IMG/VR virus record: IMGVR_UViG_3300025133_000598 | Coordinates: 1 to 23,737 of that record | DNA: 23,737 nt | Origin: a virus | Strand: one strand, 5' to 3' | Part shown: piece after piece, positions 1-17,400 of the stretch | Position numbering within the stretch: the first letter of the stretch is position 1 | How the letters are laid out: the number at the start of each line of letters is the position of its first letter | Position numbers and translations under genes: made by a program | Notes under the pieces: generated by a model | The model's database searches: none | The model's input: the letters and a program-made list of their open reading frames with translations, nothing else | What the model was told of the DNA's origin: nothing

Positions 1-31
1 GGAAGGAAAGTTGGGGGGGACATATAGATGA
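1..31 (+). other. Possible 3' end of an upstream gene and ribosome binding region
   Basis: Two plus-strand frames are open from the window edge and stop next to the first complete gene. One ends in TAG at 25-27, directly before the ATG at 28. The other ends in TGA at 29-31, giving an ATGA overlap. Either fits a tightly packed upstream gene, but too little is present to choose between them or name a product. A run of seven G at 13-19 followed by A, seven bases before the ATG, is the likeliest ribosome binding site. A GGAAGGA stretch lies at 1-7. Confidence 0.3.
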
Positions 32-1416
32 GTCAAGGAAAATATGATTGGTCAACTTTTACTGATGGCGCCGGCGCAATGGACATCTATGGCAATACTG
101 TGCGCAAAAGTCTCATAGGTGATTCATATAATGCGGTAACACAGTTTAAAGCAGTTGCGTTGACAGATATGTTCCCATTAAACTCTAATCAGGCCATGGC
201 TCTTGATGGCGGCAGTACGGGCGGCGGTGATAATGCGAATCAAAGATATGCCTATAAAGGTAGAATAATCGGAGAGAACTCTCCACACTCATTCCTACCC
301 AACCCCTGTGATCCGGCCGATTCTTTGGTGAACGATGAGGCCGTTTATAGAGTTATTGCAATGCATACGACTTTTATTGCAACAGTGGCAAACGGCGGCG
401 ACAGCGTAACGCGTGGTGACATTATATATGTGGAACTAGACAAAAGCGACTACTCATATAATTTGGAATATGGTCGGCATGTTTCACTATCGTCTGTAGA
501 AAACCCAGTCGCGACAGAGGGCACCGCATGCGCCAATTTGGTGGGCCTCGTAGGCGAATGGGGCGGCCCACCTCCTGCTCCAGCCGGCACCGTGGCGAGC
601 ATGCTCCCCGGCGGTATGAGCACCGTTCAGGGCGCCTGCGGGATTAAGGTTCCCAGGTCGTCACATGCCAAATGGGCAGCTAATAACGGCGCGCATCCAG
701 ATTGGATTGGCAGGGCTGATTTGAAAACAGGAGAGAATCTGACTTCTCCGGTACCGGCAGCTGAGTTTAAAATAACAAGCCCCTTCGGTTCTCGCGAGTC
801 GGGCCACCACGCAGTTGACATCGGCGCCAAGAAGGGTACCCCGATATATGCAATCGCAGACGGCACCGTAAAAGGCATGAACGACAAGGTATGCCCAGAA
901 GCCCCGCGAGGGAAATGCGGCCCGGGCAAAGGGAAACAATCTCCCTGTAACTGCGGCAAACTGATGGGCAACTGGATAAAACTTCTACACACGGCTAAGT
1001 CCCCCGGCGGCCACCCCATAGAAACCTATTATGCTCATATGACCGCGTACGCCGCCGGCCTCAAACCAGGCGCCACAGTAAAAGCCGGCCAGCAGATTGG
1101 ACAAGTAGGCAGCACTGGAAATAGCAGCGGTCCTCACCTACACATGCAGGTGCATTTCCGCGGCGCCCCAAATACCGAATCAGGGGGTAAGATTGATCCG
1201 ATGGCCTATCTAATGCAGAACACATCCGGCGGCACCAAATGTGGCACCAGCGACGTCGCCGGTGACGCTGTCGCTGTGGTCGCACCGGTGCTCGATGAAA
1301 GCAACGAAGGTACCAAATGGGAGTGGATCGATGAAAATGCATCGCCCCCCACGTGGCGTGAGTTACCTGATGGCGAGCCTCGTACTGATGGAAGCGACTG
1401 GGAAGAGGGGGCCTGA
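28..1416 (+). CDS. Tail-associated M23 (LytM-type) endopeptidase with N-terminal baseplate/hub-like domain
   Basis: Predicted virion protein of 462 residues that would cut peptide cross-links in peptidoglycan during DNA injection. Residues 1 to about 185 form a domain shared with the next gene (blocks ALTDMFPL, ALDGGSTG, MHTTFI, VTRGDI, YNLEYGR, LVGLVG). It is probably an OB-like structural adaptor, an inference from layout and phage context. A Gly/Pro/Ala-rich linker follows. From about residue 248 comes an M23 metallopeptidase with the expected zinc and catalytic residues visible: H260-x3-D264, H337 in YYAHM, and H370-x-H372 in GPHLHMQ. Unusually, residues 289-309 hold an insertion with four cysteines (289, 297, 307, 309). 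The tail past residue 400 is acidic and rich in Trp and Glu. The gene ends in TGA, five bases before the next start. No signal peptide is seen, which fits delivery by the virion rather than secretion. The M23 assignment is strong; the hub location is inferred. Confidence 0.9.
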   Translation: MSQGKYDWSTFTDGAGAMDIYGNTVRKSLIGDSYNAVTQFKAVALTDMFPLNSNQAMALDGGSTGGGDNANQRYAYKGRIIGENSPHSFLPNPCDPADSLVNDEAVYRVIAMHTTFIATVANGGDSVTRGDIIYVELDKSDYSYNLEYGRHVSLSSVENPVATEGTACANLVGLVGEWGGPPPAPAGTVASMLPGGMSTVQGACGIKVPRSSHAKWAANNGAHPDWIGRADLKTGENLTSPVPAAEFKITSPFGSRESGHHAVDIGAKKGTPIYAIADGTVKGMNDKVCPEAPRGKCGPGKGKQSPCNCGKLMGNWIKLLHTAKSPGGHPIETYYAHMTAYAAGLKPGATVKAGQQIGQVGSTGNSSGPHLHMQVHFRGAPNTESGGKIDPMAYLMQNTSGGTKCGTSDVAGDAVAVVAPVLDESNEGTKWEWIDENASPPTWRELPDGEPRTDGSDWEEGA

Positions 1417-1421
1417 TAAGT

Positions 1422-2636
1422 ATGTCAAACAGAGAGAAGCACGACTGGACACTATTTACAGATAGACAAGGCTCGCTTGATCTATATGGTAAGTCATTTC
1501 GCAAAGGAATGGCATACGACACATATAGCGGCAAAACGGTTTTTAGGGCCAGGGCCCTAACTGATATGTTTCCACTTTCTTCAAATCAGCTTATGGCTCT
1601 TGACGGTGGTTCTACGGGAAACGACGGAAATAAAAGATATGCGTTTAAAGCGCGCATCATAGGTGAAAGCTCTCCACACGCATTTCTTCCTGATCCGTGT
1701 GATCCATCATATTCGAAAGATGAGAATATGACATATAGAATTATTGCAATGCATACAACATTTATTAGCACAAATATTATAGAAGGTCAACCAGTAACTC
1801 GCGGAGATATTGTTTCAGTTGAATTAGAGAGAACCGATCAAGCTTACAATCTAGAATATGGTAGATTTATAAATACCCTAAGTGTAGAAAGCCCAGTAAA
1901 CACCGCGGGCACCGAATGCGCCTCGCTTGTTGGATTAGTTGGCGGATGGGAGCAACCCCAGAACATGCCCATGGGCGGTACTACCGCCGGGGCCCCCAAT
2001 AATCCGGGCAAATACTACCAATGCAAAGGTGGCAATGATAAGTGCGGTGCTAAGGATGATTCAACTTTCGCTAAATGCAAAGCGTCGACATACGATGCGT
2101 TAGCAAAGAAGCCCACAACATTCAAGAAATACACAGAAGCCGAGGTGATAGCAGCCGTGAAGGCATCAGGCCAGCCAGAACATATTCAAAAGATAATGTT
2201 TGTTTTCATTGTTAAAGAACAGTCTAAGTTTAGTTTCCCGAATAATAACGTTGCAGGAATACAGCTTGATGGAGGCCAGTTTGCAGGTACCAGTCAGGCA
2301 GATTTCGATTATCAAACTTGTTTTAGAGACGGCGGCGGAGATCAAAGAATATTCGCCGGATTTGACACTTTAGCTAAAGGTATGACCGTGTTTGGAAAGA
2401 CAGTAGCTGGAAAAATGAAAGTATTTCAAACACCGCCGGGCAACTCGATTGAGGCAGATGCAGAAATCTTGACGTGGAATTATTATCGGCAATGGAACTT
2501 AGCGCTAAGTCCGGAGGAATTGGTGAAACTTAAGGCCGATGGCCAAGTAGAAAGAAAAGGCAAAATCTATAAAAAAAGCTGGAGCGGCGTCAAGAGTTCG
2601 TTCCAAGCTTCGTTAACTAAATGGCAAAACGCATAA
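1422..2636 (+). CDS. Paralogue of the preceding protein with a putative lysozyme-like C-terminal domain
   Basis: The 404-residue product begins with a domain that aligns along residues 1 to about 180 with the M23 protein upstream, so the two arose by duplication. The C-terminal part is unrelated to M23. After a linker with three cysteines (201, 208, 219), residues about 235-404 look like a small alpha-helical domain. It has a glutamate at 266 in FIVKEQSKF, followed by NNN (274-276) and VAGIQ (277-281). That spacing recalls lysozyme, glucosaminidase or lytic transglycosylase folds, where a catalytic Glu is followed by an Asn/Gly-Ile-Gln segment; this is suggestive only. If correct, the pair would attack both the peptide and the sugar links of the wall. 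The start is supported by GAGGGG at 1405-1410 inside the end of the upstream gene. The coding sequence is more AT-rich than the M23 half of its neighbour. Gene call firm; enzyme class uncertain. Confidence 0.75.
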   Translation: MSNREKHDWTLFTDRQGSLDLYGKSFRKGMAYDTYSGKTVFRARALTDMFPLSSNQLMALDGGSTGNDGNKRYAFKARIIGESSPHAFLPDPCDPSYSKDENMTYRIIAMHTTFISTNIIEGQPVTRGDIVSVELERTDQAYNLEYGRFINTLSVESPVNTAGTECASLVGLVGGWEQPQNMPMGGTTAGAPNNPGKYYQCKGGNDKCGAKDDSTFAKCKASTYDALAKKPTTFKKYTEAEVIAAVKASGQPEHIQKIMFVFIVKEQSKFSFPNNNVAGIQLDGGQFAGTSQADFDYQTCFRDGGGDQRIFAGFDTLAKGMTVFGKTVAGKMKVFQTPPGNSIEADAEILTWNYYRQWNLALSPEELVKLKADGQVERKGKIYKKSWSGVKSSFQASLTKWQNA

Positions 2637-2705: not shown

Positions 2706-3722
2706 ATGGCAGACGACAAAGTTAAAATTTCAGAAGGCCAGATCCCGGGCGATTCGACCGCGTCTGGGCGGTCACTGAATTCGCGCGCCCTCGGCAGCAA
2801 ACAAAAGCTTCCCCCAAAATCCGGCCTATTCCATTCAGTTGCGTTCTGTACCAATCGAGCCGGCCGCGGAGGGCGCATTGGTTATCTTAAGGCGGCAAAC
2901 GAAACTGTATTAACTGGCGAGGGCGCTTATATCGTTCTTGGTACCGATAGGCCAAACTCTATACGTTCTGGTTACGGAGCGTATGGGGGCTGCAAGGCTG
3001 CATCCATTGATTTGGTTGTTGGGCGCATGATCACCGCCAGAAAGGGCAAAGGCCCGAAGACGTCAAAAGGTCAAGTAACGTACGTTAATCCAGACTTTTC
3101 TGCTGATGCAGCCCGAATCCACATTAGTCAAATGACCAATATTGATCACAACTTTGGTATCGCGCGCGGTGTCGGTGTCCAATCGAAGGCGCGCTCAGGA
3201 ATTGGAGTAAAGGCGGATGCGGTAAGAATCATCGGTCGCGAAAGTGTTAAATTGATCACTGGCGGCATGCAAGATGTCAAACACCAGCCCGGCGGCGAAC
3301 CAACATCGCTAGGCAAGAAAATCTCCCAACCTGCGCCAAACATCGAGTTTATTGCAGGAAACAATGTACGGGATCAGGTTGTGTGGGGAGGCCTGTTTAA
3401 TCCGAAAGAGAGGATTAGAGGTCTTCAAGGGATAGCTAAAGGTGGCAACACCCGCGATGCCCTCGGAGAGTTGTGCGATCATCTAGAAATGACAATGATG
3501 GCAACCATGGCAGTAGCATCGATTGCAGAACAGATGTGGGTAGCAATTGGTACCGCTGCTCCTCCTTTAAGTGGCCTGGCAACCTATGCAACATTATCGT
3601 CAGTCTTGAAAGGTAAAATTTCTTTATATCACTTGCGCACTGAGTTGGTTACATGGAGAATAAATTACCTAACTGCCGGCGGCTATAAGTGCCTCTGGAG
3701 TAGGAATGTTAAAACCACCTAA
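2706..3722 (+). CDS. Virion structural protein, possible central spike/hub component
   Basis: The product has 338 residues. I do not recognise it with certainty. The centre (about residues 130-185) reads as short alternating beta strands, including ARIHISQMT and KADAVRIIGRESVKLITGG. That style is seen in the C-terminal beta-helix of gp5-like spikes and VgrG proteins, where 'D-x-I-R-I' strands repeat. Residues about 258-300 are rich in Met, Ala and Thr and fairly hydrophobic, ending in a Pro/Gly turn; they could be a helical oligomerisation segment. The N-terminus (about 1-40) is polar and probably flexible. The gene lies directly after the two hydrolase genes and 11 bases before the giant gene, so a role in the puncturing tip is reasonable: T4 gp5 carries adaptor, lysozyme and spike in one chain, whereas here they would be split. 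The start has AGGAA five bases upstream. Gene call firm; function tentative. Confidence 0.6.
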   Translation: MADDKVKISEGQIPGDSTASGRSLNSRALGSKQKLPPKSGLFHSVAFCTNRAGRGGRIGYLKAANETVLTGEGAYIVLGTDRPNSIRSGYGAYGGCKAASIDLVVGRMITARKGKGPKTSKGQVTYVNPDFSADAARIHISQMTNIDHNFGIARGVGVQSKARSGIGVKADAVRIIGRESVKLITGGMQDVKHQPGGEPTSLGKKISQPAPNIEFIAGNNVRDQVVWGGLFNPKERIRGLQGIAKGGNTRDALGELCDHLEMTMMATMAVASIAEQMWVAIGTAAPPLSGLATYATLSSVLKGKISLYHLRTELVTWRINYLTAGGYKCLWSRNVKTT

Positions 3723-3733
3723 GAGAATAAATT

Positions 3734-6700
3734 ATGGCTGAATCTAAATCTAAATTTTTTAAATGGCAGGATAAGAATGGAGACATGCTGCCCGATGTGT
3801 GTCCGGATCCGGCTGTACCAAGAGTCGATGCTTGCCTGCCGTGTTCCCCCAATCCTCAAGCGACAGTTCCCCGTTGGAAAAATCTAACTCAGGCGGAACC
3901 GTATTTAAATGAAAAATTATGTAAATATCAAGTTTCATTTTTAACGAAAGAGACAATACTGGGTTATGACGGCATATCCGAAGAAGATGCAGCTGCCAGA
4001 CTTGAAAAAATTTGGGAACACTATATGCTCGACTGGTATCAAGATGTTTACAACACCCTTGACCCACAGTGGCTCGTTGATCACCCAGTCGACCCTGGAG
4101 AGCCGCGTCCGGGCTGCATTCGCGCCCTTTTAGATTGGGGAGGAAAAGATACCTCAGACGAATCGATTGAGAAAGTTAAAAACGCCATCGAAAAAACAGA
4201 ATATTGGCTTGAACCAAATCCGGGTTCGTATGTTCAATTGTTATATTCAGTACCATTTGAAGTATATGAAGCGATACCCGAGGCGCAACCACCAGAAGAG
4301 GAAGAGCCGGAACCGGGAGATGTAACAGTCACATATGAAGTTGGCGATTTGGTCATGGATTGTATCAAAACTCGAAAAGGCCTTTATCTATATTCAAGAT
4401 ATCTTAAGGTATATCGCACGATGGAGGGGGCGAACCTCGTTCATGAAGATGGTAGAATATTCAACTTAGAAGACTATGCAGATTATTTGCCATGGGAGAA
4501 TAACTCATATATTGCGCAATGCCTCTCAGAGTTGGATGATTGGCTTAATACGCAAGATTTAAATATTCCAAATACTGGATTCCCACATTGGTTCACCGAG
4601 ACCGTAGAAAAAATAGAGCTTAAAGCAACCGGGAAGTATAAACTTAAGAGCATTAAGGTGTGGACTGACCGATGTAACGAAAGACCGATTTATTTTGGGA
4701 AGAACAGGATAAGGGCCTTGACAACTCGCAATGCTTGGAAAAATCCGACCGCAGTAGCGTTCTTTTTCAAATTAAGCGAGCTTGCCAAAGAGTTTTCTGC
4801 TCGCGTCGAGCGCCCATGGCTAGAAGTCTTAAAGGAGCACACATACCCAGAAATACATTCCACCGGCCCCGGCGCTGGCCAAATCATGCCGAGCGGAAAA
4901 GAAAGCATTCCAGAGTGTATTGCTAACGCACTAGCTAATGAGGCCAAGCAACTTGGCCAAGATATTATGGACGATGTATTCAGCATCGGAGACGCGATTG
5001 CCTATGCGTTCCACAAAAACTTGTGTAGATATGATCCAACCGAAAATGCCGCAGATCAGGCTGAAATTGGAATGAACTTTGGTGTTTCCGAACAGGTGCT
5101 TGATGATATAAAGGCGGATAAAAGTACGATGTGGGGCGCCGCCATGATGGGTGCTTATAAAGAAGTCGATCCTCGCGATCAAATCTTTGCGCATTTTTGT
5201 ATGAGAATGCTTATGTTTAGAAAAGGTTCCCCGATTCAGATGATGGACGATATATGGGCAAACGGACTTGAAAGAATAAAAGTTTGCGGCCTATTCGATT
5301 TGTTATTGGCCGCCGTAGAGTGCCTAACAAAAGGTATGAGTCTGGAAGAGGCGTTAGCCATCCTTCTAAAGAATGCCCTGCAGGCCATGTCAATAGAAGA
5401 TTTTGGATCTCTGTTCGTAGGTCTTCCGCCGGATCAACAAGCGAAGCTCGGAGAAATGGTACAGAAGAAACTCACGACCAAGGAAGGCCTTGAGGGACTC
5501 ACAGAGAAATACACAGATGCCCAAGGACAAGCAGGCGCAGAATCCAAAGTGGCCAAGGGGGACAAGGAAGGGAAGTTCATCGGAAAAACTAAGATTGTGC
5601 CCCCATGGCAGAATCCAGAAGTCGTAGAAGCACAGAAAAAGACTTTGCGAGCCAACGGCATGGGTCAAATGACTCCTGGTGGCGGCGGCGGCCGCGGCAA
5701 ATCTGCGACCACCTCATCAGAGGATCCGACGACATCAAGAAGGTCGCTAGCGCAGAAATTAGACGTCGGAGCGGTCGCAAAAGACGAACTAGATCCAAAT
5801 GTGATTATGGAAGCATACGTAATGGCTCTTTTGGATATATATTCAGAGAACTATCTGATGCTTCTGGATAAACTAAATGATTTCCCTGGAGCCCAGATCA
5901 TTTCAATGCTTCTCTCAACATTAGATTGCCCAAGGCCTCCACTCTTCAATCCAGGTCTCGACGATTTCTTGAAGAGTTTAACTCTTCCATTCTGTAGGAA
6001 CTTGAATGAAATAACACTACCTAGGCTCGAAAATCCATTTATATGGTGGCCTAAGCTGATGGATATCTTCGGCATCTTGTGGGAGCTTCTCAAGGACTTA
6101 ATCTTGCAGCTGATTATTCGGACAATCATAAGAATTATTGTTAAGATTTGCGAACTAATCGGATCCGCGATCTGCAAGGCTCTTGAAGTTACTGGTGCTG
6201 TGGCAGGGTCACTCCCCGGAATTCTTACTGGAAAGAAGAAGTTCAGCAATGTACTCAGAGACGCGATTTGCGGCGAAGACATGTCAGACGATGAAATGGA
6301 TAACGTTGTTACACAGCTTGTGGCAGATCTTGGTGTCGGCGGTCAGGCGCTAGCAGATCCCGACAGGGCACTGACATTCGCAGAAGACCTCTCATCTGCA
6401 ACCACTCAAGCAGAACTGGTTAGTGCCATGTTGGGAGAGCCTTCAGAAACTTTCCTGCGCCTAGGCGATCAAATTGTTGAAAATGGATATCCAGATTACC
6501 GCGATGCTCTCCCGACTCCACAATCGATTGGACGATTCTTCTCTAACGTTGGCAATCTGATTCCAGCCGAGATGAGAGATGAAATGAGAGACGCCTTGGA
6601 CAAGCTGGGTCCCAACGATGAGACTCCGGCAAATCCCACACTGTGCGCCACACCCGAACAATTAGAATCATTCAAGGACTTAAGGTGCCAGTTATTAGAA

Positions 6701-9700
6701 GGCCGCGCCTCACCAGAGCAGTGCGACACCATGTTTGAGAATTGGCGCGGCACAATGATGGACGATCTAGATGAAGTCGCCGCGCTGATGCAAAATGGAA
6801 TCGGCCCGGCCATCGCAGATCAGATGCCTCCTATTGTGGGGGATCCGGGTTGCAACAATGGTATGATGCCATATGAGCCCGATGAGTTTATCAAAGAAGC
6901 TGCAAACGCGATGGATGGCGAAATGAAGAAAATTCATATTGCCTTTTGTACCGACATGCTTGGTAACGGCGGCCTGTTCTCCGGCGGAGACTCTGGGTGG
7001 GGATTCATAAATATGGTATTGTCCGACACTATGGGCAACCCCTTCACGGTTCACCAGAGAAAATCGTTTAATGACAAAAACTATGTTGATTTCTATACTG
7101 ATGTTGATAACGGATGGATTAAAAAGGCGAACGACGACAGCGACGGCGCGGCAATGGGTATCAGTTTCTCTAGTTTAGCCGAACAAGAAGGAGCATACCC
7201 TCAATACGTCGGAGAATGGCTCATGTATCAATATGAAGCCGCCGGCGGCGAGAAGTCTCAAGAACTAAACGATATGGGATTCCGTAATATTGGGAAAGAT
7301 CTTGGGGATAGTGTGAACTTTATTAGCACCAACTCCCCTCGCGGTACCGCTAAATGGCCTATTAGTTTTTCTGACTTAGGCTTCTGTGGTTTGTTCATAT
7401 GTGATATAAACTTAACGGAAATTCCAGATATGGGGTACAATGTAAAGACTGCCCCACAATGGGACAAAGAGCGAATGTGGTTTATCAAAAAGCCCCGCAA
7501 AGATAAGCCTGATATAAAATTGGAGTTTAAAGACAACGCGAAAGGATATCGAATGGGCCAAAACGGGGGCCAGTCCTCGTGGAGTTATGGATTTAATGTA
7601 AATGCATATTTTTCGGACATGCATGAAACTCCAGAGGGAGGATATGCCAACCGTCCCGACGATAATGTGAGGATCTATATTACAGATCTCTACAATATGG
7701 CTGCCGCGATGAAAGATGGATATGAAAAACTCCAAGAAGTCAATGCCGGCAACGCCCGCGGCAAGTCCGAAGACCCACCAGATCCTAAGATTTTAAAGTC
7801 TAGAAAATATGAGTTTCTTGCTGTTGATGACGGCCTAGATTCATTATATGATCCTGGCTCCGAAGGGCTCACAATAGAAGATTTCCCCAGCCTAAGCGAG
7901 TGCTTTTTAAGACAAACTCCCTATCCTCCGCAAGTTAATATGTTGTATGACTTATTTAAGGGCCAACACTCAAAAGAATCTATTAAGAGCGCATACGACG
8001 ACTTTATGCAGCAACAGTTTAAGAAGATTTGCAGTGAGATAGCCAATAACAAAAAAGCTTGGCGCTACGGGGCCCAGTTTGATGATTTGGATATGTCGGA
8101 TTTTGACTATCTTGCTCCACCCAAATTTAAGAATGCCGGCGGCTCTAATCCCAAAACCCCAAAGAAGAATAAAAGTGGCGTCGACTATTATATGCTAGAA
8201 GTTGCAAATTATAATAGCGATGGAAACAGAGACGGCACTCGGCCAATATCCAATGACGATGCCGCCTTGGGGTGGAGTAGAAACCAGTGGCTGAACAAAC
8301 GCCGCGGCACACATCCCGAGAAAACAAGAGTATTTTATCTAGATCCTGGAAAGTACGGTGGCACATACATGAATCCCCCGGTATATGTTAAGCCCCACAA
8401 ATCAGAAGGGTGGGCAGGTATTGTGGATGTCATGTTCCCCGAGTTGAGCCCTTGCAGCCCAAAAACAACAGACGTTATCGACTTTAAAGATATATCCGAT
8501 AAGATATCCAATTCGTATCCCAAAATTCCAGAAGACAGTCGCCTTAAGGGATCCCCAGATTGTGTGGTCGAGGTTCCATACAATAGAATATTGGCAAGAA
8601 TGTCTAAGGCGACAATAGAAGGCCTCATCTCTGCCGGCATCAGAGTATTCGCCGGCGTTCACTTCCTCAAAGGCCTTCCGATCTTCACAAAGTTTGCACC
8701 AGTCTTTCCGACAAACTACAGTAATATTTATTCTGCCTACATTGTTGAGTGTATGGAAGATACCTTTCGTAATGCCGGCGCCGATTTCTTGAGCCCGTTT
8801 AAAGACAATGAATTTTGGTATGCATTCTTAGAGCAGGCAGTACAGACATATGGTCGTAGAGTTGATAATGAAGAATTTGGTGTTGATGGCGCCAATGTTC
8901 CAAAAAACGTAAAAGACGCCCTCACTAGGCTTAACAATTTACAAGAGAGTTTTGACTATGCATACGGCGAAGATCTCTGGGATGCAAAGATGTCTGGTGA
9001 AACTGGATTTTTCAATAGTCTTAAGAATTTCCGCGAAGAGAAAAATCTGGATTCGATTTACAGAACGCAGGAAGATGCCAAACTAGTTCTAAAAGAGTTA
9101 GTTAACGAACAGCTGTCTATAACCTCCCAAAAGCTTATTGGCAACCTTAAGGCATTGGATATGACCCCGGATATCACTGATCTGGATTACTATTATATGA
9201 CTACTTTTTGTGCCGGCACTGAAGAACTCGGCCTAACTCTTGAGGGAACTTTGGTAGAAGAGGTTGTTGGGTTGCCAAGTTCAGCAACGGATAAAGCGGG
9301 AGATATGGCCTGGACGGAATCGCCGCTGCCCGGGATCGAATACCCAGAAGTTTCTATTGTTGTTGACGATGAAACCGGCGAACCAGTAAGTCCGCCTTTG
9401 GTCACGTGGCCCGGCCCATTTTATACGCACGGTGGCGAGTACTCAGTCACAGACGGCAGCGATTATGTCGGCTATTACCATGGCACCACGAGCGAAGAGA
9501 CTGGCATGGATGAGTACTTTGTAGGGGAAGAACTTGAAGACAATACAGAACAGTTAAGGGCGTTTGCCAACAAGATCATAATTGGAACCGAGATCGTGAC
9601 CGAGATCGATGCCCCAGTAGACGAAGAGCCTGTCCCGCCGGCCAAAAAGAAGAAGAACTACGAATCGGTATTCACTCCCCTTGGAGACGTACCAGATGGA

Positions 9701-10687
9701 CCCGATGGCGCCAGCACCACTAAGGAGAAACCATTTACGTTGTATAAGTATATCAAGGTCGATGGTGCGTATTACAACATGGAGAGCGGAGTAAATGCCG
9801 TCCGAGCCGCCGGGGGAGGGCTGATATCTCAAAGCTTCCCTGGAACATTGAAACTAAACAAAGATAGCGAAGGAAACGTGCTTGCTGGTGCACCATTGAG
9901 AGGCGAACTAGGTGTTAGGTATGGATTATTTTTTGGGTGGGGCGCCAATACCGAAATAACCAGAGTAGAGATCGATGCTCTAGATGTTCCCGTGAATACT
10001 TTTGCTGCTATTGAAGCAGATAGCAAATTATTGTATTGTTTGATTCAGTTACTCAAGGAAGATCAGAAGTTTAAGCTTGTTACAAATTACGCATTTTCTC
10101 TTAAGAAGGTTTTGGCCATAATGGCGATATATCAAGATGTAGGATTCTTGCCTTCTATCGGAGAGGTAACCGCCGACGCCGGCGCCAGCTTCGGAGACTT
10201 GTTCCACGATGCCAATGAATATGGCCCCTACTCAACAACCAGCGCGCTTAAAAAGCCCGGAACATACGCCGATTTAGATTGGGGCTCGATCGAGGTAAAG
10301 GGCGAGAACTGGTGGGGCAAGGAAGTTGAAGATGATATCGCAATCGTCGAAGGCGCCACAATGGAACATACTCCCGGCTGGGTTGCTGAAAACGACCGCC
10401 ATGGTTTTTGGCCATCGCTATTTGTTGAGAAATATGACGAATGGGATCAACTTACATTGAGAAAGACCGCAAAACAATTGAAGAGAATATTTCAAGTACA
10501 CTACAGAAGTCGGGATTTCGGCGGTACCGAGAAAGAAATGGACAACCTTGCGCAAGGTTACATGCAACAGTTGAAAGAAAAGTTTAGGATTAGCCCCGGA
10601 AAAGCCTTTTTACCATGGTGGAAAAGAAACAGAGTCAGATCTAATCCCTTTAATGAGAATGGCGAACTGTGCAAAAAGAAAGATTAG
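3734..10687 (+). CDS. Giant virion structural protein (2317 residues), function unknown
   Basis: A single uninterrupted frame encoding roughly 255 kDa at 110 Da per residue. I do not recognise an enzyme or a complete known domain. Visible parts, in order: a cysteine cluster near the N-terminus (C23, C34, C37, C63); an acidic Glu/Pro linker at about 187-197; a Gly-rich, Ser/Thr linker at about 642-671; a long hydrophobic, partly amphipathic helical stretch at about 776-833; a region rich in short acidic helices at about 840-1010; and mixed alpha/beta sequence beyond. Around 1893-1935 there is a YVGYYH module resembling short repeats I recall from environmental phage structural proteins. A Pro/Lys linker lies near 1965-1978, and the C-terminus is basic (WWKRNRVR). 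Between the hub-like genes and gp25, it is most likely a baseplate or tail-tip protein. A tape measure is less likely, since long regular coiled coil is absent. It starts 11 bases after the previous stop. Confidence 0.7.
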   Translation: MAESKSKFFKWQDKNGDMLPDVCPDPAVPRVDACLPCSPNPQATVPRWKNLTQAEPYLNEKLCKYQVSFLTKETILGYDGISEEDAAARLEKIWEHYMLDWYQDVYNTLDPQWLVDHPVDPGEPRPGCIRALLDWGGKDTSDESIEKVKNAIEKTEYWLEPNPGSYVQLLYSVPFEVYEAIPEAQPPEEEEPEPGDVTVTYEVGDLVMDCIKTRKGLYLYSRYLKVYRTMEGANLVHEDGRIFNLEDYADYLPWENNSYIAQCLSELDDWLNTQDLNIPNTGFPHWFTETVEKIELKATGKYKLKSIKVWTDRCNERPIYFGKNRIRALTTRNAWKNPTAVAFFFKLSELAKEFSARVERPWLEVLKEHTYPEIHSTGPGAGQIMPSGKESIPECIANALANEAKQLGQDIMDDVFSIGDAIAYAFHKNLCRYDPTENAADQAEIGMNFGVSEQVLDDIKADKSTMWGAAMMGAYKEVDPRDQIFAHFCMRMLMFRKGSPIQMMDDIWANGLERIKVCGLFDLLLAAVECLTKGMSLEEALAILLKNALQAMSIEDFGSLFVGLPPDQQAKLGEMVQKKLTTKEGLEGLTEKYTDAQGQAGAESKVAKGDKEGKFIGKTKIVPPWQNPEVVEAQKKTLRANGMGQMTPGGGGGRGKSATTSSEDPTTSRRSLAQKLDVGAVAKDELDPNVIMEAYVMALLDIYSENYLMLLDKLNDFPGAQIISMLLSTLDCPRPPLFNPGLDDFLKSLTLPFCRNLNEITLPRLENPFIWWPKLMDIFGILWELLKDLILQLIIRTIIRIIVKICELIGSAICKALEVTGAVAGSLPGILTGKKKFSNVLRDAICGEDMSDDEMDNVVTQLVADLGVGGQALADPDRALTFAEDLSSATTQAELVSAMLGEPSETFLRLGDQIVENGYPDYRDALPTPQSIGRFFSNVGNLIPAEMRDEMRDALDKLGPNDETPANPTLCATPEQLESFKDLRCQLLEGRASPEQCDTMFENWRGTMMDDLDEVAALMQNGIGPAIADQMPPIVGDPGCNNGMMPYEPDEFIKEAANAMDGEMKKIHIAFCTDMLGNGGLFSGGDSGWGFINMVLSDTMGNPFTVHQRKSFNDKNYVDFYTDVDNGWIKKANDDSDGAAMGISFSSLAEQEGAYPQYVGEWLMYQYEAAGGEKSQELNDMGFRNIGKDLGDSVNFISTNSPRGTAKWPISFSDLGFCGLFICDINLTEIPDMGYNVKTAPQWDKERMWFIKKPRKDKPDIKLEFKDNAKGYRMGQNGGQSSWSYGFNVNAYFSDMHETPEGGYANRPDDNVRIYITDLYNMAAAMKDGYEKLQEVNAGNARGKSEDPPDPKILKSRKYEFLAVDDGLDSLYDPGSEGLTIEDFPSLSECFLRQTPYPPQVNMLYDLFKGQHSKESIKSAYDDFMQQQFKKICSEIANNKKAWRYGAQFDDLDMSDFDYLAPPKFKNAGGSNPKTPKKNKSGVDYYMLEVANYNSDGNRDGTRPISNDDAALGWSRNQWLNKRRGTHPEKTRVFYLDPGKYGGTYMNPPVYVKPHKSEGWAGIVDVMFPELSPCSPKTTDVIDFKDISDKISNSYPKIPEDSRLKGSPDCVVEVPYNRILARMSKATIEGLISAGIRVFAGVHFLKGLPIFTKFAPVFPTNYSNIYSAYIVECMEDTFRNAGADFLSPFKDNEFWYAFLEQAVQTYGRRVDNEEFGVDGANVPKNVKDALTRLNNLQESFDYAYGEDLWDAKMSGETGFFNSLKNFREEKNLDSIYRTQEDAKLVLKELVNEQLSITSQKLIGNLKALDMTPDITDLDYYYMTTFCAGTEELGLTLEGTLVEEVVGLPSSATDKAGDMAWTESPLPGIEYPEVSIVVDDETGEPVSPPLVTWPGPFYTHGGEYSVTDGSDYVGYYHGTTSEETGMDEYFVGEELEDNTEQLRAFANKIIIGTEIVTEIDAPVDEEPVPPAKKKKNYESVFTPLGDVPDGPDGASTTKEKPFTLYKYIKVDGAYYNMESGVNAVRAAGGGLISQSFPGTLKLNKDSEGNVLAGAPLRGELGVRYGLFFGWGANTEITRVEIDALDVPVNTFAAIEADSKLLYCLIQLLKEDQKFKLVTNYAFSLKKVLAIMAIYQDVGFLPSIGEVTADAGASFGDLFHDANEYGPYSTTSALKKPGTYADLDWGSIEVKGENWWGKEVEDDIAIVEGATMEHTPGWVAENDRHGFWPSLFVEKYDEWDQLTLRKTAKQLKRIFQVHYRSRDFGGTEKEMDNLAQGYMQQLKEKFRISPGKAFLPWWKRNRVRSNPFNENGELCKKKD

Positions 10688-10714: not shown

Positions 10715-11083
10715 ATGGCATCACTATCAGTTAAACTGCCAATCACTAAAGATTCTGGTGATGGTTTCGAGATGATCAAAGATTTTAGAACACTCATAAA
10801 ACAAAATTTTAAAATGCTCTTGCTAACCCACCCCGGAGAAAGGGTGATGGAGCCCAATTTTGGTGTTGGAATTCAAACCTATATTTTCGACACCTTCTCG
10901 ACGCAGACCTTCAACAATATTGAGAGTAAAATACTCGAACAAATAAGTATCTACTTGCCAGTCATCACGCTCAAAGAGGTTAATTTTGCGGAAGATCAGA
11001 TAAACTATAACAAACTTCATATAAATATACAATACTCAATTCCAAGTTTAAATGTCGAAGATTTGTTAGAGTTCACTATTTAA
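10715..11083 (+). CDS. 25: Baseplate wedge protein gp25-like
   Basis: The 122-residue product matches the gp25 family (132 residues in T4), a small wedge protein that contacts the first sheath ring and helps nucleate sheath assembly in contractile tails and related injection machines. The family's hallmark turn is visible at residues 39-58: HPGERVMEPNFG, followed by an aromatic 'QTYIF' strand. The usual third residue of the 'MRP' motif is replaced, giving MEP. The helices before and after it (ENFKMLL-type and IESKILEQISIYLP) also fit. GAGGGA at 10701-10706, eight bases before the ATG, is a clear ribosome binding site. TATAAT at 10695-10700 is too close to the start to be a convincing promoter. 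The next gene follows after 15 bases. This family also occurs in R-type pyocins and type VI secretion, but the neighbours here point to a phage. Confidence 0.9.
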   Translation: MASLSVKLPITKDSGDGFEMIKDFRTLIKQNFKMLLLTHPGERVMEPNFGVGIQTYIFDTFSTQTFNNIESKILEQISIYLPVITLKEVNFAEDQINYNKLHINIQYSIPSLNVEDLLEFTI

Positions 11084-11098: not shown

Positions 11099-12895
11099 AT
11101 GCCCAAACAACAGAAAAAATTAATACCGATTGATTACACTCATCGCGAATTCGAGTCGATCAGAGCGGACTTGCTCCAGATTGCAGAAAGATTTTATCCA
11201 GATACCTTCCAAGATTTCAGCGAGGCCTCTTTTGGAGCTATGATGCTAGATGCGGTGGCCTATATCGGCGACCAGCTTTCGTTTTACATAGACTATAACG
11301 TTAATGAGAGCTTCCTCGACACTGCATTTCAGTTTGGAAACGTTGTGCGACACGGCCGCTCTTTGGGCTACAAGTTCACTGGTCGACCTTCGACATTCGG
11401 CTCTATAGGAATGTTTTTGCTCATACCAGCGTCTAGCACCGGCCTAGGCCCCGATCCTGCCTACATGCCGATATTAAAAAGGGGAAGCTCCTTCAGCAGC
11501 ACAACCGGCCTCTTGTTCATGATTACAGAGAATGTCGACTTCTCAGATCCTAGAAATCTAACAGTTGCAGCAAGAGTGGATCCGACCACCGGCGCCCCCA
11601 CCCACTACGCTGTAAAAACATATGGTACTGTTGTCTCTGGCCAGTTAGATCAAGAGACTGTAGAGGTAGGAGCCTATGTGCCATTTTATAGAACCACCCT
11701 TTCCACAGGTAACGTCTCAGAGGTCCTTTCAGTATTCGATTCAGAGGGGAATCAATATTTTGAAGTCGATTATTTGGCGCAAGATATGATTTTTAAAGAA
11801 ATAACCAACCCCAACTATAAAAACGACAATGTCCCCTCCATCATAAAGCCATTTTTGGTCTCCAGGAAATTTATATTGCAGCAAGATCGCGATCAGATTA
11901 CACTTCAATTTGGTAGTGGCAAGCTAGGCGATTCCAACGTGGTGGCGAACCCACAAAATGTAGCAATGAATGTATTTGGAAAGACGTATGTGACCGACAC
12001 GACATTCGATCCAACGAGATTATCTCAGAATGAATCATTTGGTATCGTTCCCGCAAATACTACTTTGACTATAACGTATAGGACAACAAACCCGACAAAT
12101 TCAAATATTGGGGTCGGAGGACTCAATACCGTCGGTTCGACCAGTTTTGAATTCACCGATAGACAACAACTGAGCGCAGTTAAAGTTAGTGAAATAATGG
12201 GTTCCTTAGAGATTACGAATGAAGAACCCATTATTGGAGATGTTACGCTCCCGTCTACTTCTGAAATTAAACAAAGAGTTTATGACACGTTTCCGACACA
12301 AAACAGAGCAGTAACCCAGGCAGACTATGAAAACCTGTGTTATAGAATGCCGGCAAAGTTTGGGGCCATTAAAAGAGTGTCGGTTCAAAAGGACGCAGAC
12401 TCACAAAAGAGAAATTTAAATATGTACATTCTCTCTGAAGATATTGCCGGTAAACTGACTGTTGCCAACACAGTAATAAAAAATAACTTAAAAACATGGA
12501 TAAATCAGTATAGAATGATTAATGATACAGTCGATATTTTGGATCCTTACATCCTTAACTTTGGAGTTGAGTTTATTGTTAAGCCACAACAGGCTAGTGA
12601 TAAATACGAGGTTTTGGATAAGTGCATAGACGCGCTTAAGGATCATTATAAGGAGCCATTCTTTATTGGAGAGCCATTGTACATTAGTCAAATATACGAA
12701 GTATTGAAAAAGGTAGATGGCGTATTGGACGTATCAAAAGTCAAGGTTAATCCCAAGACAGCTGGCAGCTATTCGTCATCGGCAATAAACATAAACGATA
12801 ATTTATCTCCCGATGGTTCCTACATAGTTGTTCCGTATAATGCAATATTTGAGATTAAATATCCAGAGGTAGATATCATTGGGAAGATTAGATAA
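11099..12895 (+). CDS. 6: Baseplate wedge protein gp6-like
   Basis: The 598-residue product resembles T4 gp6 (660 residues), the ring-forming wedge protein of the baseplate, related to the P2 J family. Residues 41-76 carry the conserved N-terminal helix pair SFGAMMLDAVAYIGDQLSFY and NVNESFLDTA. Residues about 397-430 carry the C-terminal signature QNRAVTQADYENLCYRMP followed by FGAIKRVSV, equivalent to the 'R-x-V-T-x-x-D-Y' segment of gp6/J proteins. The last 100 residues give the typical alpha/beta dimerisation region (IYEVLKKVDGVLDV). The gene directly follows gp25, the usual partner order. AGTGAGG at 11084-11090 is the ribosome binding site, separated from the ATG by a T-run. The TAA stop overlaps the next ATG by one base, implying translational coupling. 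Confidence 0.9.
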   Translation: MPKQQKKLIPIDYTHREFESIRADLLQIAERFYPDTFQDFSEASFGAMMLDAVAYIGDQLSFYIDYNVNESFLDTAFQFGNVVRHGRSLGYKFTGRPSTFGSIGMFLLIPASSTGLGPDPAYMPILKRGSSFSSTTGLLFMITENVDFSDPRNLTVAARVDPTTGAPTHYAVKTYGTVVSGQLDQETVEVGAYVPFYRTTLSTGNVSEVLSVFDSEGNQYFEVDYLAQDMIFKEITNPNYKNDNVPSIIKPFLVSRKFILQQDRDQITLQFGSGKLGDSNVVANPQNVAMNVFGKTYVTDTTFDPTRLSQNESFGIVPANTTLTITYRTTNPTNSNIGVGGLNTVGSTSFEFTDRQQLSAVKVSEIMGSLEITNEEPIIGDVTLPSTSEIKQRVYDTFPTQNRAVTQADYENLCYRMPAKFGAIKRVSVQKDADSQKRNLNMYILSEDIAGKLTVANTVIKNNLKTWINQYRMINDTVDILDPYILNFGVEFIVKPQQASDKYEVLDKCIDALKDHYKEPFFIGEPLYISQIYEVLKKVDGVLDVSKVKVNPKTAGSYSSSAININDNLSPDGSYIVVPYNAIFEIKYPEVDIIGKIR

Positions 12896-14463
12896 TGGGC
12901 TTAAGAAGATATACAGGCAGTGCCGATAACACTATAGCTAGCGCTTATCAGGGGAACTTATCTACAAGAGGGACAGGCTCGAATATGGGTATGTCCGATA
13001 TTTTAGAGACCTTCTCTATTTATGGGCGCCAGACTCCAAGCAGTTCGCTGGCTTTGGCTTCTCAAGAGCTTTCTAGGATATTGATTAAATTTCCTACAAG
13101 TGAGATTTCTTCTGATCGAACCGCTGGTGTTCTACCGACATCTGGAAGTGTTAAGTTTTATTTGAGATTGCACAATGCGCCTCATTCACGAACGGTTCCG
13201 GAGAATTATTCTCTGATTGTGCAGGCTGTTTCGCGCTCGTGGGAAGAAGGCGTCGGCCTCGATCTTGATAATTATAAAGATAAAACCAAGGGAAATATAG
13301 GCTCAAACTGGATGCGCGCATCAAAGACAGTAGCGTGGACACACATCGGAGGCGATTATTTGACCGCCTCAGATCAGTGGGATGCCTCTGGAAATCCGCC
13401 AGTCTACACGCAAGATTTCTCCACAGGCCTAGAAGACTTGGAGATTGACATTACCGGGTTGGTGGAACACTGGGTTGCAGACGATCTGGGGAATTACGGT
13501 GTAGGGATTATGTTTTCATCCTCATACGAAGGATACTATGAAGATCCCACGGACGGGATTACCCTTAATAATACCGGCGGAGCGCTTAAATCATACTACA
13601 CTAAGAGGTTTTTCGCACGAGGTTCCCAATATTTCTTTAAACGCCCCTGTATCGAAGCCCGCTGGGCAACTCCAAAGCTAGACGACAGGGGCAACTTTTA
13701 TTACAGTAGCTCGTTGGCACCGGCCGCAGATAACTTAAACACCCTTTATCTATACAACTATGTGCGCGGCAAACTAAGAGACATACCAAGTGTCGGAACT
13801 ACAGGCTCCATTATGGTGAGCATGCACTCTGGATCGACCAAAAATACAACACCTTCCGGCTCTAGGTTAATATTATACGATGGCACATATGCCATAACAG
13901 GAGGGTGGGTCTCGACAGGCATTTATTCTGCATCTGTCGCCATAACCTCTGCTGTTACACCAATCCCGACCTTATATGACATATGGTGGACTGGTTCGTA
14001 TTCAAAAACGGGACAACTTTTCACAGGATCGATCTCGCCGCAAGTGCTAACGGCACAAGTCGATACGAGAGAGCCGGTATATTTCATTAACATAACAAAT
14101 TTAAAAAACAAATATAAAACTACGGAAACGGCTAGGTTTAATTTGTTTGTTCGCAACAAGTACTGGAGCCCAACCGTATACACAAAGGCAAACGAAGATG
14201 TAGCCTCAACATCAATTATTAGCGCTTCTTATCGGGTTATTCGGATGATAGATGGCCAAGAGGCGATTGCGTATGGAACCGGTTCCGACCTTCAAACGAG
14301 ACTTTCTTATGACATCTCCGGCAATTATTTTGATTTAAAGATGAATATGCTAGAGGCAGGATATGAATACGCGTTTAAATTTGCGTTTTATGAGCCGGAT
14401 TTAAATTCATGGATCGAACAAGATAAGGCTTTCAAGTTTAGAGTGATAGAGAATGAGTATTAA
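12895..14463 (+). CDS. Beta-rich virion protein with DNRLRE-like N-terminal domain
   Basis: The 522-residue product appears to be made of beta sandwiches. Residues about 9-212 follow the layout of DNRLRE-type domains: an opening SADNTIASA segment, a strand ELSRILIKFP at about 58-72, WEEGVGLD near 116, a GSNWMRA/W-x-GGDY stretch, and a closing strand LEIDITGLVEHWVAD followed by NYGVGIMF at about 181-208. DNRLRE domains are carbohydrate-binding-like modules of secreted and surface proteins. Residues about 396 to the end form a second domain (NITNLKNKY, FVRNKYWSPTVYTKA, LSYDISGNYFDLKMNML, FKFRV). I associate it with uncharacterised environmental phage structural proteins; this is recollection, not a search. 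Linked to gp6 by a 1-base overlap and to the giant downstream gene by 11 bases, it is probably an outer wedge or fibre-attachment protein. T4 gp8 is shorter (334 residues) and no similarity is evident. Gene call firm; domain call moderate. Confidence 0.7.
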   Translation: MGLRRYTGSADNTIASAYQGNLSTRGTGSNMGMSDILETFSIYGRQTPSSSLALASQELSRILIKFPTSEISSDRTAGVLPTSGSVKFYLRLHNAPHSRTVPENYSLIVQAVSRSWEEGVGLDLDNYKDKTKGNIGSNWMRASKTVAWTHIGGDYLTASDQWDASGNPPVYTQDFSTGLEDLEIDITGLVEHWVADDLGNYGVGIMFSSSYEGYYEDPTDGITLNNTGGALKSYYTKRFFARGSQYFFKRPCIEARWATPKLDDRGNFYYSSSLAPAADNLNTLYLYNYVRGKLRDIPSVGTTGSIMVSMHSGSTKNTTPSGSRLILYDGTYAITGGWVSTGIYSASVAITSAVTPIPTLYDIWWTGSYSKTGQLFTGSISPQVLTAQVDTREPVYFINITNLKNKYKTTETARFNLFVRNKYWSPTVYTKANEDVASTSIISASYRVIRMIDGQEAIAYGTGSDLQTRLSYDISGNYFDLKMNMLEAGYEYAFKFAFYEPDLNSWIEQDKAFKFRVIENEY

Positions 14464-17400
14464 GAAATTTTTTGATGGATCTGATAAATCTAGACAGTAT
14501 TTAACAGATCAAGAGCAAAAAGAAGCATTTAAGGAAATTGAATCTTCCAAGAATCTTAAGCAGCTAAGGATCCGACAGGATACCCACCTGCCTCAAGTAG
14601 ATTATGCAGACCCGGATAATTTTGCAAAGTTTGGTTCTGCTTATCTCTATTATAAATCAGCAGTAGAGAGGATTCTAGACTATTACCCCTATGATGGCTC
14701 GGATGCCGAACTTAATGAGTTCTATAACAGGTCATTGCCGATTGAAAAGCACATTTTCAACAAGATGTATCCTCGTACGAACGGATATATAACTTTCTGC
14801 ACCGGTGGCTGGGGTACTCGGTCGGGCCCCATGACAACTAATGGATATGGCTTGCCGGAGACAGTCGAGTATATTACTTTTTACGGTGGTCCAAATATTT
14901 CAACGTCCCTAACAAAGTTAAAGGACATGGAACCTGATCCGCTGTCAAGCAAATTTCAGAGCAACAATATTTATGACGAAAGCATATATGATACTGCCGG
15001 CCTTCGTTCAGATTATGGCAAGGGAACCAGAGAGTCCAACCTTAAGAGCGACTTTGATACAGGGGTCACAGTAGAGTTTTGGTTAAAGACGGGCTCATTG
15101 GGAACAACTGAAACACACAAGCAGGTTGTTTTCGACATGTGGAACAACGAGGTCACAACCAGCGCAGGTTATGGTCGCATTACCATTGAACTAACTGGCG
15201 GCGCCGGATCAGGGAACCCTATTCTAGTCACAGCACAGTCTGGCACTGTGTCAGCTTCTGCTCAGATGTGCTTTACTTCTTCAATAGGTCAAGATCTTTC
15301 TTCTGGAGATTTCTCTTCTTGGCGCCACTATGCAATTACAATGTACAACTCCGGGTCAGACTTTAAGACTGATTTATATGTTAATGGATATTTAAATGAC
15401 ACAAACGCATACACCGGCGGAAAACTAGGAGAACTTAGCTCAAAGAATATGGTCGCCCGCATAGGAGCGCTGGTTACGTCACCCTCTGGTAGTGCTGCAG
15501 CAGCCGGCGCCGGCAAATTAAGCGGCTCACTTGACGAGTTCAGGTTTTGGAAGGTACGTCGCAACGGAGCCCAAATTGGGAAATACTGGTTCGATCAAAT
15601 TCGCGGCGGTGTCAACACAGACATCTCGAATACAGAACTTGGGATGTATTATAAGTTTAACGAGGGTATCACCGGAGATAGCGACATCGATAGCGTCGTG
15701 CTGGATTATGGTGGGCGCCTCTGCAATGGAGTTTGGACAGGTTATACAACAACTTCTAGAAACACAGGCTCAGCTATATTGTCCTCTTCGGCAGCAACCA
15801 AAGAATACGAAGATCCAATCATACAGGCAACTCACCCCCGGGTATCGGAATTAAAAGAAGGGCTGATGGCCAGTGGTTCTTTCCATGATTCCCGCAATAG
15901 CGCCATTGTTAGAAATCTGGTTCCCTCTTGGATTACCAAAGATATGGAGATATCAGATCAAAGTGATTTAGACAAGATGTGTCATATCCTTGGTACGTAT
16001 TTTGATAAATTATATTTACAAATTGGCGGGATTCCAACCTTCAAACACCTCAATTATACTAGCGCTTCCGCCGAGGCTCTCCCGTTTGCGCAACATCTCC
16101 CGCAGTCATTAGGTCTTTATACCCCAGAAATATTTGTTGATTCGACAATTTTAGAAAAATTTAAAAACAGAACTGATAAAGAGCATTTTCAAAATGATCT
16201 TGTTGAAACTAAAAACCTGATATACTCTAATTTATACAACAACCTTGCCGGTATTTATAAGGCAAAGGGGACCGAGAAGGCAATTCGCAACACGTTAAGG
16301 TGTTTTAATCTTAACGATAATCTTGTAACGTATAATGTATATTCCAACAATCAGCAATATGAACTTAAAAATAGCCTCAAGCAGACGTTAAAAAGAAAGA
16401 CCTTCGCAAACTTTAATACATCCGACGGGATTACCGCAGTCATTCATCAGGCAGCAGATCCTCACACAGGCTCAACAAGAGGGTACATTAGCGGAACCAA
16501 TGCATCGGGCTATGAGGATAAGTATGGATTTACGGCTGAAGCGTCGTTGGTTTTTCCAAGATTTTATAAGCAACTAGATCCATTCCCGAGAGACTTCTCG
16601 GATATATCCCTCTTCGGTGTTCAGACGGTCAACACAGCTTCGACGTCAGATACGGCATTCCTTACGGGCGCCCAAGATGTGGCAAACTTTCAAGTATACG
16701 CAGTAAGAGACGAATCTTATTCTAAGAATGCGTATTTCGTATTAACATCGTCTACCGACCCGCACAATTTTCCAACTCTAACCAGTAGTATGTTCTTCGA
16801 TGTGTACGACGACAGTAACTGGAACTTCTCAGTTAGAATCAAGCCAAGCAACTATGGCTTTACAGATCTAGTCAGTGGCTCCCAGGTATACAATTACGAT
16901 GTTGTGTTTAGGGGAATAAACAATAATCTTGGGACCGTATTGAATGAGTTTGAAGTGTCTTCTTCGGTTACCAAGGCCGTAGGCCAGAGCATTGTCCGCG
17001 CACCCAAGAGACTTTATGTCGGCGCCAGAAATACGAATATAACCGGCGCAAATGTATACAAATCAGATATACTGGCCGCGTCAGCGAAGTATTGGACAAA
17101 ATACATTGATAATTTAACTTTAAATCAGCACCTTTTCGACTCCGAAAACTTTGGTATTTCAGGTTCTTATGAACATATTTCCGCGCTCGATAGTAATCTA
17201 CAGAATACGCACAACTATGAGACATTGGCTCTTAACTGGTATTTCGGAAATGTAACGTCGTCGGACGCCAGTGGCAATTTTTACGTAACAGATCTAAGTT
17301 CTGGTTCCGCCGAGAATAGATCTTCAGTCGGTTGGATTGGAAACGTTGGTGGCCACCTTCATAGTGGAAAAGGATCGGGATTTTATACAAATGACTCCAA

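Follow-up and report, generated by a model that had tools for sequence, protein, structure and literature searches.

Tandem genes for probable gp5*-like hub proteins of a large marine phage may place three wall-directed enzymes on one tail spike

We propose that the DNA analysed here carries the last two of three tandem gp5*-like hub genes of a large marine contractile-tailed phage, and that the three encoded adaptors (p1, p2 and p3) use one spike in common to deliver three enzymes, a reading to which we give a probability of about 55%. According to this model, each OB-like adaptor would be located at the tail-tube tip, above a central candidate spike presumed to be trimeric like gp5C, and would bear a wall enzyme: an M15/VanY-like peptidase on p1, an M23 endopeptidase on p2 and a GH73-like glucosaminidase on p3. 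The spike would pierce the envelope during infection, and stem peptides as well as glycan strands would be cleaved by the joint action of the three enzymes. As the adaptors form no covalent part of the candidate spike, its three seats could take three paralogues. To our knowledge, tail spikes are usually taken as homotrimers with one type of lysozyme. If the model is true, this phage has a natural device for penetration with several enzymes, corresponding to the evolved VgrG sets of bacteria, and the three-gene array offers a ready test of whether symmetric spikes turn hetero-oligomeric by duplication.

The window, that is, the whole stretch analysed, is a linear record of 23,737 bases from a marine virus of bacteria. 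Two intact open reading frames stand at its beginning, p2 (462 aa) and p3 (404 aa). As the original prediction had claimed, they have a common N-terminal domain (p2 residues 5-187 and p3 residues 6-185, 107/183 identical, 58%, E 3e-73) and unrelated C-termini, with no profile match between the latter; a profile of the p3 C-terminus also matched none of the other C-terminal types of the family. The 16-base identity pointed out between the two genes (353-368 and 1741-1756) is real and is their sole common stretch of 12 bases or more, and since it encodes the conserved IAMHT motif it adds nothing beyond the protein similarity. What did not hold is the copy number, because the array has three members and not two. 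In L002, a genome near-identical to the window phage (99.6% over 7,975 bases), a third paralogue, p1 (L002:4615-6000, 461 aa), is a complete gene directly upstream of p2. Bases 1-27 of the window are the final codons of p1, so that the contig begins within the array. The p1 stop directly adjoins the p2 ATG (TAGATG) and 5 bases separate p2 from p3, an abutting arrangement that suggests co-translation. The features are as follows.

1-27, plus strand: end of p1, last codons and stop; the L002 and window ends agree except for a few bases at the contig tip
28-1416, plus strand: p2, predicted OB-like adaptor with M23 endopeptidase, 462 aa, with the HHAVD and HLH M23 motifs
28-576, plus strand: p2 N-terminal adaptor domain, 58% identical to p3, slot-2 clade
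802-1167, plus strand: p2 M23 peptidase domain, PF01551 E 9.3e-20
1422-2636, plus strand: p3, predicted OB-like adaptor with putative GH73-like glucosaminidase domain, 404 aa
1422-1970, plus strand: p3 N-terminal adaptor, predicted five-stranded OB-like barrel (AlphaFold2), slot-3 clade
2067-2633, plus strand: p3 C-terminal domain, divergent and glucosaminidase-like, candidate catalytic Glu266; similarity to L023-L025, PF01832 on relatives
2706-3722, plus strand: candidate gp5C-like spike (A3), 338 aa, conserved next gene, with a beta-rich region and a helical hairpin
10715-11083, plus strand: gp25 baseplate wedge protein, PF04965 E 5.7e-16
11099-12895, plus strand: gp6-like baseplate wedge protein, PHROG 219 E 1.8e-17, full-length match to Mel-JY01 and immuto

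The hub placement is based chiefly on gene order, which weighs most: sigma-like, gp33-like, hub(s), spike, large protein, gp25 and gp6. Full-length homologues of the gp6-like protein are found in Microcystis phage Mel-JY01 and Flavobacterium phage immuto, where the order is sigma-like, gp33-like (both recognised by sequence pattern), a spike-like gene, gp25 and gp6. We read the gene at this place in the two cultured phages as a probable OB plus beta-helix spike; in Mel-JY01 a chitinase-like gene is separate. The profile of the 338-aa protein weakly matches the helical (hairpin) region of the Mel-JY01 spike-like protein (single-comparison P 9e-4), and a fold search with its model found no PDB relative. 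On the strength of this common frame and of the hairpin match, we take 2706-3722 to be the spike part and p1-p3 to be the OB-enzyme part, encoded in genes of its own. No copy has a beta-helix spike in the same gene, the last part of every copy being the enzyme domain or a short tail behind it.

The predicted fold of the N-domain points in the same direction. An AlphaFold2 model of p3 (56 rows) predicts an N-terminal helix and a five-stranded OB-like barrel, with pLDDT mostly 83-95 within residues 41-160. In a viral structure library the best match of the N-domain was an M23B peptidase of an uncultured marine virus (E 2.4e-6), and lower down came a cyanophage S-CAM9 'baseplate hub + tail lysozyme' (E 0.05). 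Foldseek against the PDB ranked the OB-fold ribosomal protein uS12 best, with a probability of up to 0.98 but a weak E of 0.01, all matches there lying above E 0.001. A PDB sequence search with the N-domain gave nothing significant, and neither did sequence or profile comparison with gp5 of T4, S-CAM7 and OLIVR5. The N-domain is thus best described as a predicted OB-like adaptor, and p1-p3 probably stand at the T4 gp5 (hub) position, as fold prediction and synteny suggest; the gp5-like position claimed originally gains support from the neighbouring genes and the distant cultured phages.

Which enzymes do these adaptors carry? The M23 domain proposed for p2 is clear (PF01551, 71 bits against a cut-off of 28.7) and has both zinc motifs, HxxxD (HHAVD) and HxH (HLH). 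The p1 C-terminus is VanY/M15-like (PF02557 E 4e-4, below the curated cut-off; PHROG 2649 endolysin, 8e-6), with the motifs SKHQYGFAVD and VHWE (HxxxxxxD, HW). For p3 itself no Pfam or PHROG match was found, and PF01832 Glucosaminidase matched 2/4 members of its C-terminus group with a best E of 0.0028, not above the curated cut-off, for which reasons we call the domain glucosaminidase-like and do not file it as a GH73 member. In lysozyme-superfamily enzymes the catalytic Glu lies at the end of a helix. In the p3 model the predicted helix 253-266 ends at Glu266, residues 269-313 being poorly modelled, and E266 and the following NNVAGIQ are invariant in the four sequences of this C-terminal type. 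With moderate confidence we regard the p3 C-terminus as a putative divergent GH73-like glucosaminidase of the lysozyme superfamily, so that the glycosidase suggested earlier for this half is probably enzymatic. All three C-termini presumably cut the wall. Short Trp-rich tails (KWEWIDENASPPTW, NWYWVGDDW) follow quite different enzymes, at window 1290-1413, in the third copies of L003/L005 and in the first copy of L004, and possibly serve as a docking or sugar-binding tail.

A survey with N-domain profiles and the downstream 338-aa gene yielded about 80 further loci, by their look mostly from large marine phages. Copies were counted with an iterated N-domain profile and a check for the upstream gp33-like gene, which gave 48 complete single-copy loci, 10 distinct multi-copy loci and 8 unclear ones; L165/L166, found in a later scan, makes an eleventh multi-copy locus. 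Five sampled genomes (L002-L006) have three copies, some relatives two and most one. Among cultured phages, p3 and the L007 N-domain had no match and p2 gave M23 matches only, and a search of genome contigs gave no confirmed match. Some copies are adaptor-only and lack an enzyme domain (L093:148-816, 222 aa; L015:391-912, 173 aa); that of L093 is kept beside another copy, as apparently is that of L015, whose upstream neighbour is cut by the contig end. One hub copy, L014:2302-4107, has a long C-terminus with a hydrophobic helical stretch that matches no family above cut-off and looks unlike a wall hydrolase.

In the N-domain tree, the copies of the window phage, L003, L004 and L005 group by slot (p1 100/98, p2 95/90, p3 87/85) and the slot assignment needs 2 changes in all, the minimum; the tree is unrooted and its bootstrap values are not fully settled. 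Since each slot is a clade across lineages, one triplication predates these lineages and gene order has been kept. Judging from this tree, the triplication is common to the window phage and at least three other lineages. Duplication has also recurred independently, because in L021, L067, L089 and L093 the two copies of a pair are more closely related to one another than to any other copy. Copies in the same slot of different phages have a mean N-domain identity of 62-67%, copies in different slots of a single phage one of 49-64%. Residues specific to one slot are concentrated in the N-terminal helix, in the 118-121 loop and at 150-151 and 173-177, as predicted for paralogues that would take distinct seats. 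A mixed 1:1:1 trimer is plausible from the number and conservation of the copies, and is supported by the slot-specific N-domains and their order, the adjoining genes, the few residue patches and the retention of OB-only copies; the three paralogues would then be present together in one virion.

The C-terminal enzymes follow another pattern: they are interchangeable cassettes that have moved from slot to slot and from lineage to lineage. The single-copy hubs L023-L025 share 49-51% identity with p3 in the C-terminus, and in the N-domain they differ far more. The VanY cassette occupies slot 1 in the window phage; in L003/L005 it is found in slot 3, and all three VanY domains fall into one group (89/86, with a tool warning of long branches). 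L089 has two almost identical N-domains, one with a hub-lysozyme-type domain and the other with M23, and the near-identical N-domains of L072/L074 bear M23 and muramidase. Across the family the C-terminal types comprise M15/VanY, M23, amidase_2, muramidase, Phage_lysozyme2, DUF2272 and hub lysozymes, the lysozymes matching annotated hub lysozymes (PHROG 27932, Rhizobium-phage hub proteins). That copies within an array bear different enzymes by design did not exceed chance (p about 0.2, related loci counted once).

Such free C-terminal swapping between lineages, expected under host-range selection, raises another possibility, namely that the paralogues are alternatives: each spike would be a homotrimer (or a random mix), and virions of one clone would differ in enzyme as a bet-hedge across host walls. 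T4 gp5 is known as a homotrimer (PMC3004832), and VgrG1 and VgrG2 of one bacterium did not mix (PMC4924876). Against this, interchangeable copies should convert or vanish, whereas four lineages have kept the N-domains of the slots distinct and in order, and the abutting genes speak for joint translation; we consider this explanation unlikely. Somewhat less probable still is that a single copy is the true hub and the others have moved to another tail site or to end-of-infection lysis. One copy is indeed enough for most relatives, as the 48 single-copy loci indicate, and p1 is the most diverged slot, but the adaptor domain has the same invariant residues in all copies (51 positions in 12 sequences) and no copy lies in a recognised lysis-specific context, all being placed between the gp33-like and spike genes. 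The history proposed originally, one duplication followed by M23 capture by one copy to give a two-enzyme baseplate, suits the contents of the window taken alone and the raised GC3 of the M23 half, but is very improbable, since the third copy just upstream refutes its copy number, each slot forms a clade across lineages, and GC3 exceeds the N-domain level in the C-terminal halves of all three copies. The codon bias cited for it was partly right, GC3 of the M23 half being 0.59 against 0.42, while the GGC share of Gly was not higher (0.60 against 0.67). An older triplication with exchangeable enzyme cassettes takes the place of that history.

A further domain type is frequent in the multi-copy relatives. 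A PTP-like phosphatase domain is found on one copy in L003-L006, L014, L021 and L165, in 6/7 of them on the first gene, with an invariant signature HC[TA]HGxDRTG (HCx5R(S/T)); PTP chains came top in a PDB profile search (E 1.3e-3), and Pfam matches were below cut-offs. Such a copy occurs in 7/11 multi-copy and 0/48 single-copy loci (Fisher 1e-6), or 3/6 against 0/48 with clades counted once (8e-4); as L165 was found via the PTP search, its inclusion is biased, and without it the count is 6/10 (5e-6). The domain also occurs in other phages as a fusion partner of M23 plus PG_binding_1, of PG_binding_1 plus a lysozyme-like region, or of a muramidase-like region. Fusions with the form HC[AT]HGADRTG are present in the large phages L142 (5029-6519), L149 (4948-6591), L172 (125-1408), L132 (5572-7023) and L144 (5179-6546), their partners being M23, peptidoglycan-binding, muramidase-like, lysozyme-like and SGNH-hydrolase-like regions. 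The L142 and L132 PTP domains had no match in cultured phages, and in the literature we found neither a tyrosine phosphatase domain in a baseplate nor a dual-specificity phosphatase in an endolysin. Given the fusions to wall hydrolases, the PTP-like domain looks like a wall-associated module that accompanies a hydrolase and does not replace it, and these copies hint at unexplained envelope chemistry. We offer only tentatively the fuller picture of an encoded heterotrimeric spike, in which three slot-specific paralogues would fill three seats with three enzymes, including in the sister phages a PTP-fold envelope enzyme of an unrecognised class of wall-acting module.

How does this array relate to known systems? 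It consists of gp5*-type tail enzymes, a known type, and the triplicate slot-specific paralogues are a variation on gp5*. The gp5 chain of T4 is cleaved after synthesis, yielding gp5*, with the OB domain and the lysozyme, and gp5C, the beta-helix, and the complex (gp27-gp5*-gp5C)3 has three of each (PMC3004832). The window genes resemble gp5 in that a wall enzyme stands behind a predicted OB-like N-domain and in that they lie in the baseplate region near gp25 and gp6. T4 separates the two parts by proteolysis, whereas the window phage encodes adaptor-enzyme and candidate spike as separate genes; the family also differs in having one to three paralogues, M15, M23, GH73-like, lysozyme, amidase and other domains, and no detectable sequence match to gp5. 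Hub gp15 of Anabaena myophage A-1(L) places several wall enzymes on one baseplate, two of them shown to be active (PMC10966104), but within one polypeptide of a homotrimeric hub, while p1-p3 are three paralogous chains. The T6SS 'evolved' VgrG sets are likewise paralogous spike-type proteins with differing C-terminal domains (effectors in VgrG); VgrG1-3 heterotrimers are reported or proposed in V. cholerae, and experiments in a related system showed that C-termini can be exchanged (PMC8668125). VgrG is a gp27-gp5 fusion of a bacterial secretion system, in contrast to the separate adaptor and candidate spike genes of this phage. In jumbo phage CBB, proteins 238-240 come from neighbouring baseplate genes, and a lysozyme domain is reported for each (PMC5259590); unlike p1-p3, they (reported as gp25-like, T4-type lysozyme and gp5) are not described as paralogues with a common adaptor.

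Two large genes accompany the array in the window. Next to the spike gene, 3734-10687 encodes a 2,317-aa protein that is conserved family-wide and has no significant PHROG match. At the far end, the product of 14453-23737 is truncated where the contig stops; it has at least 3,095 aa, and parts of it look by eye like LamG-type lectin repeats.
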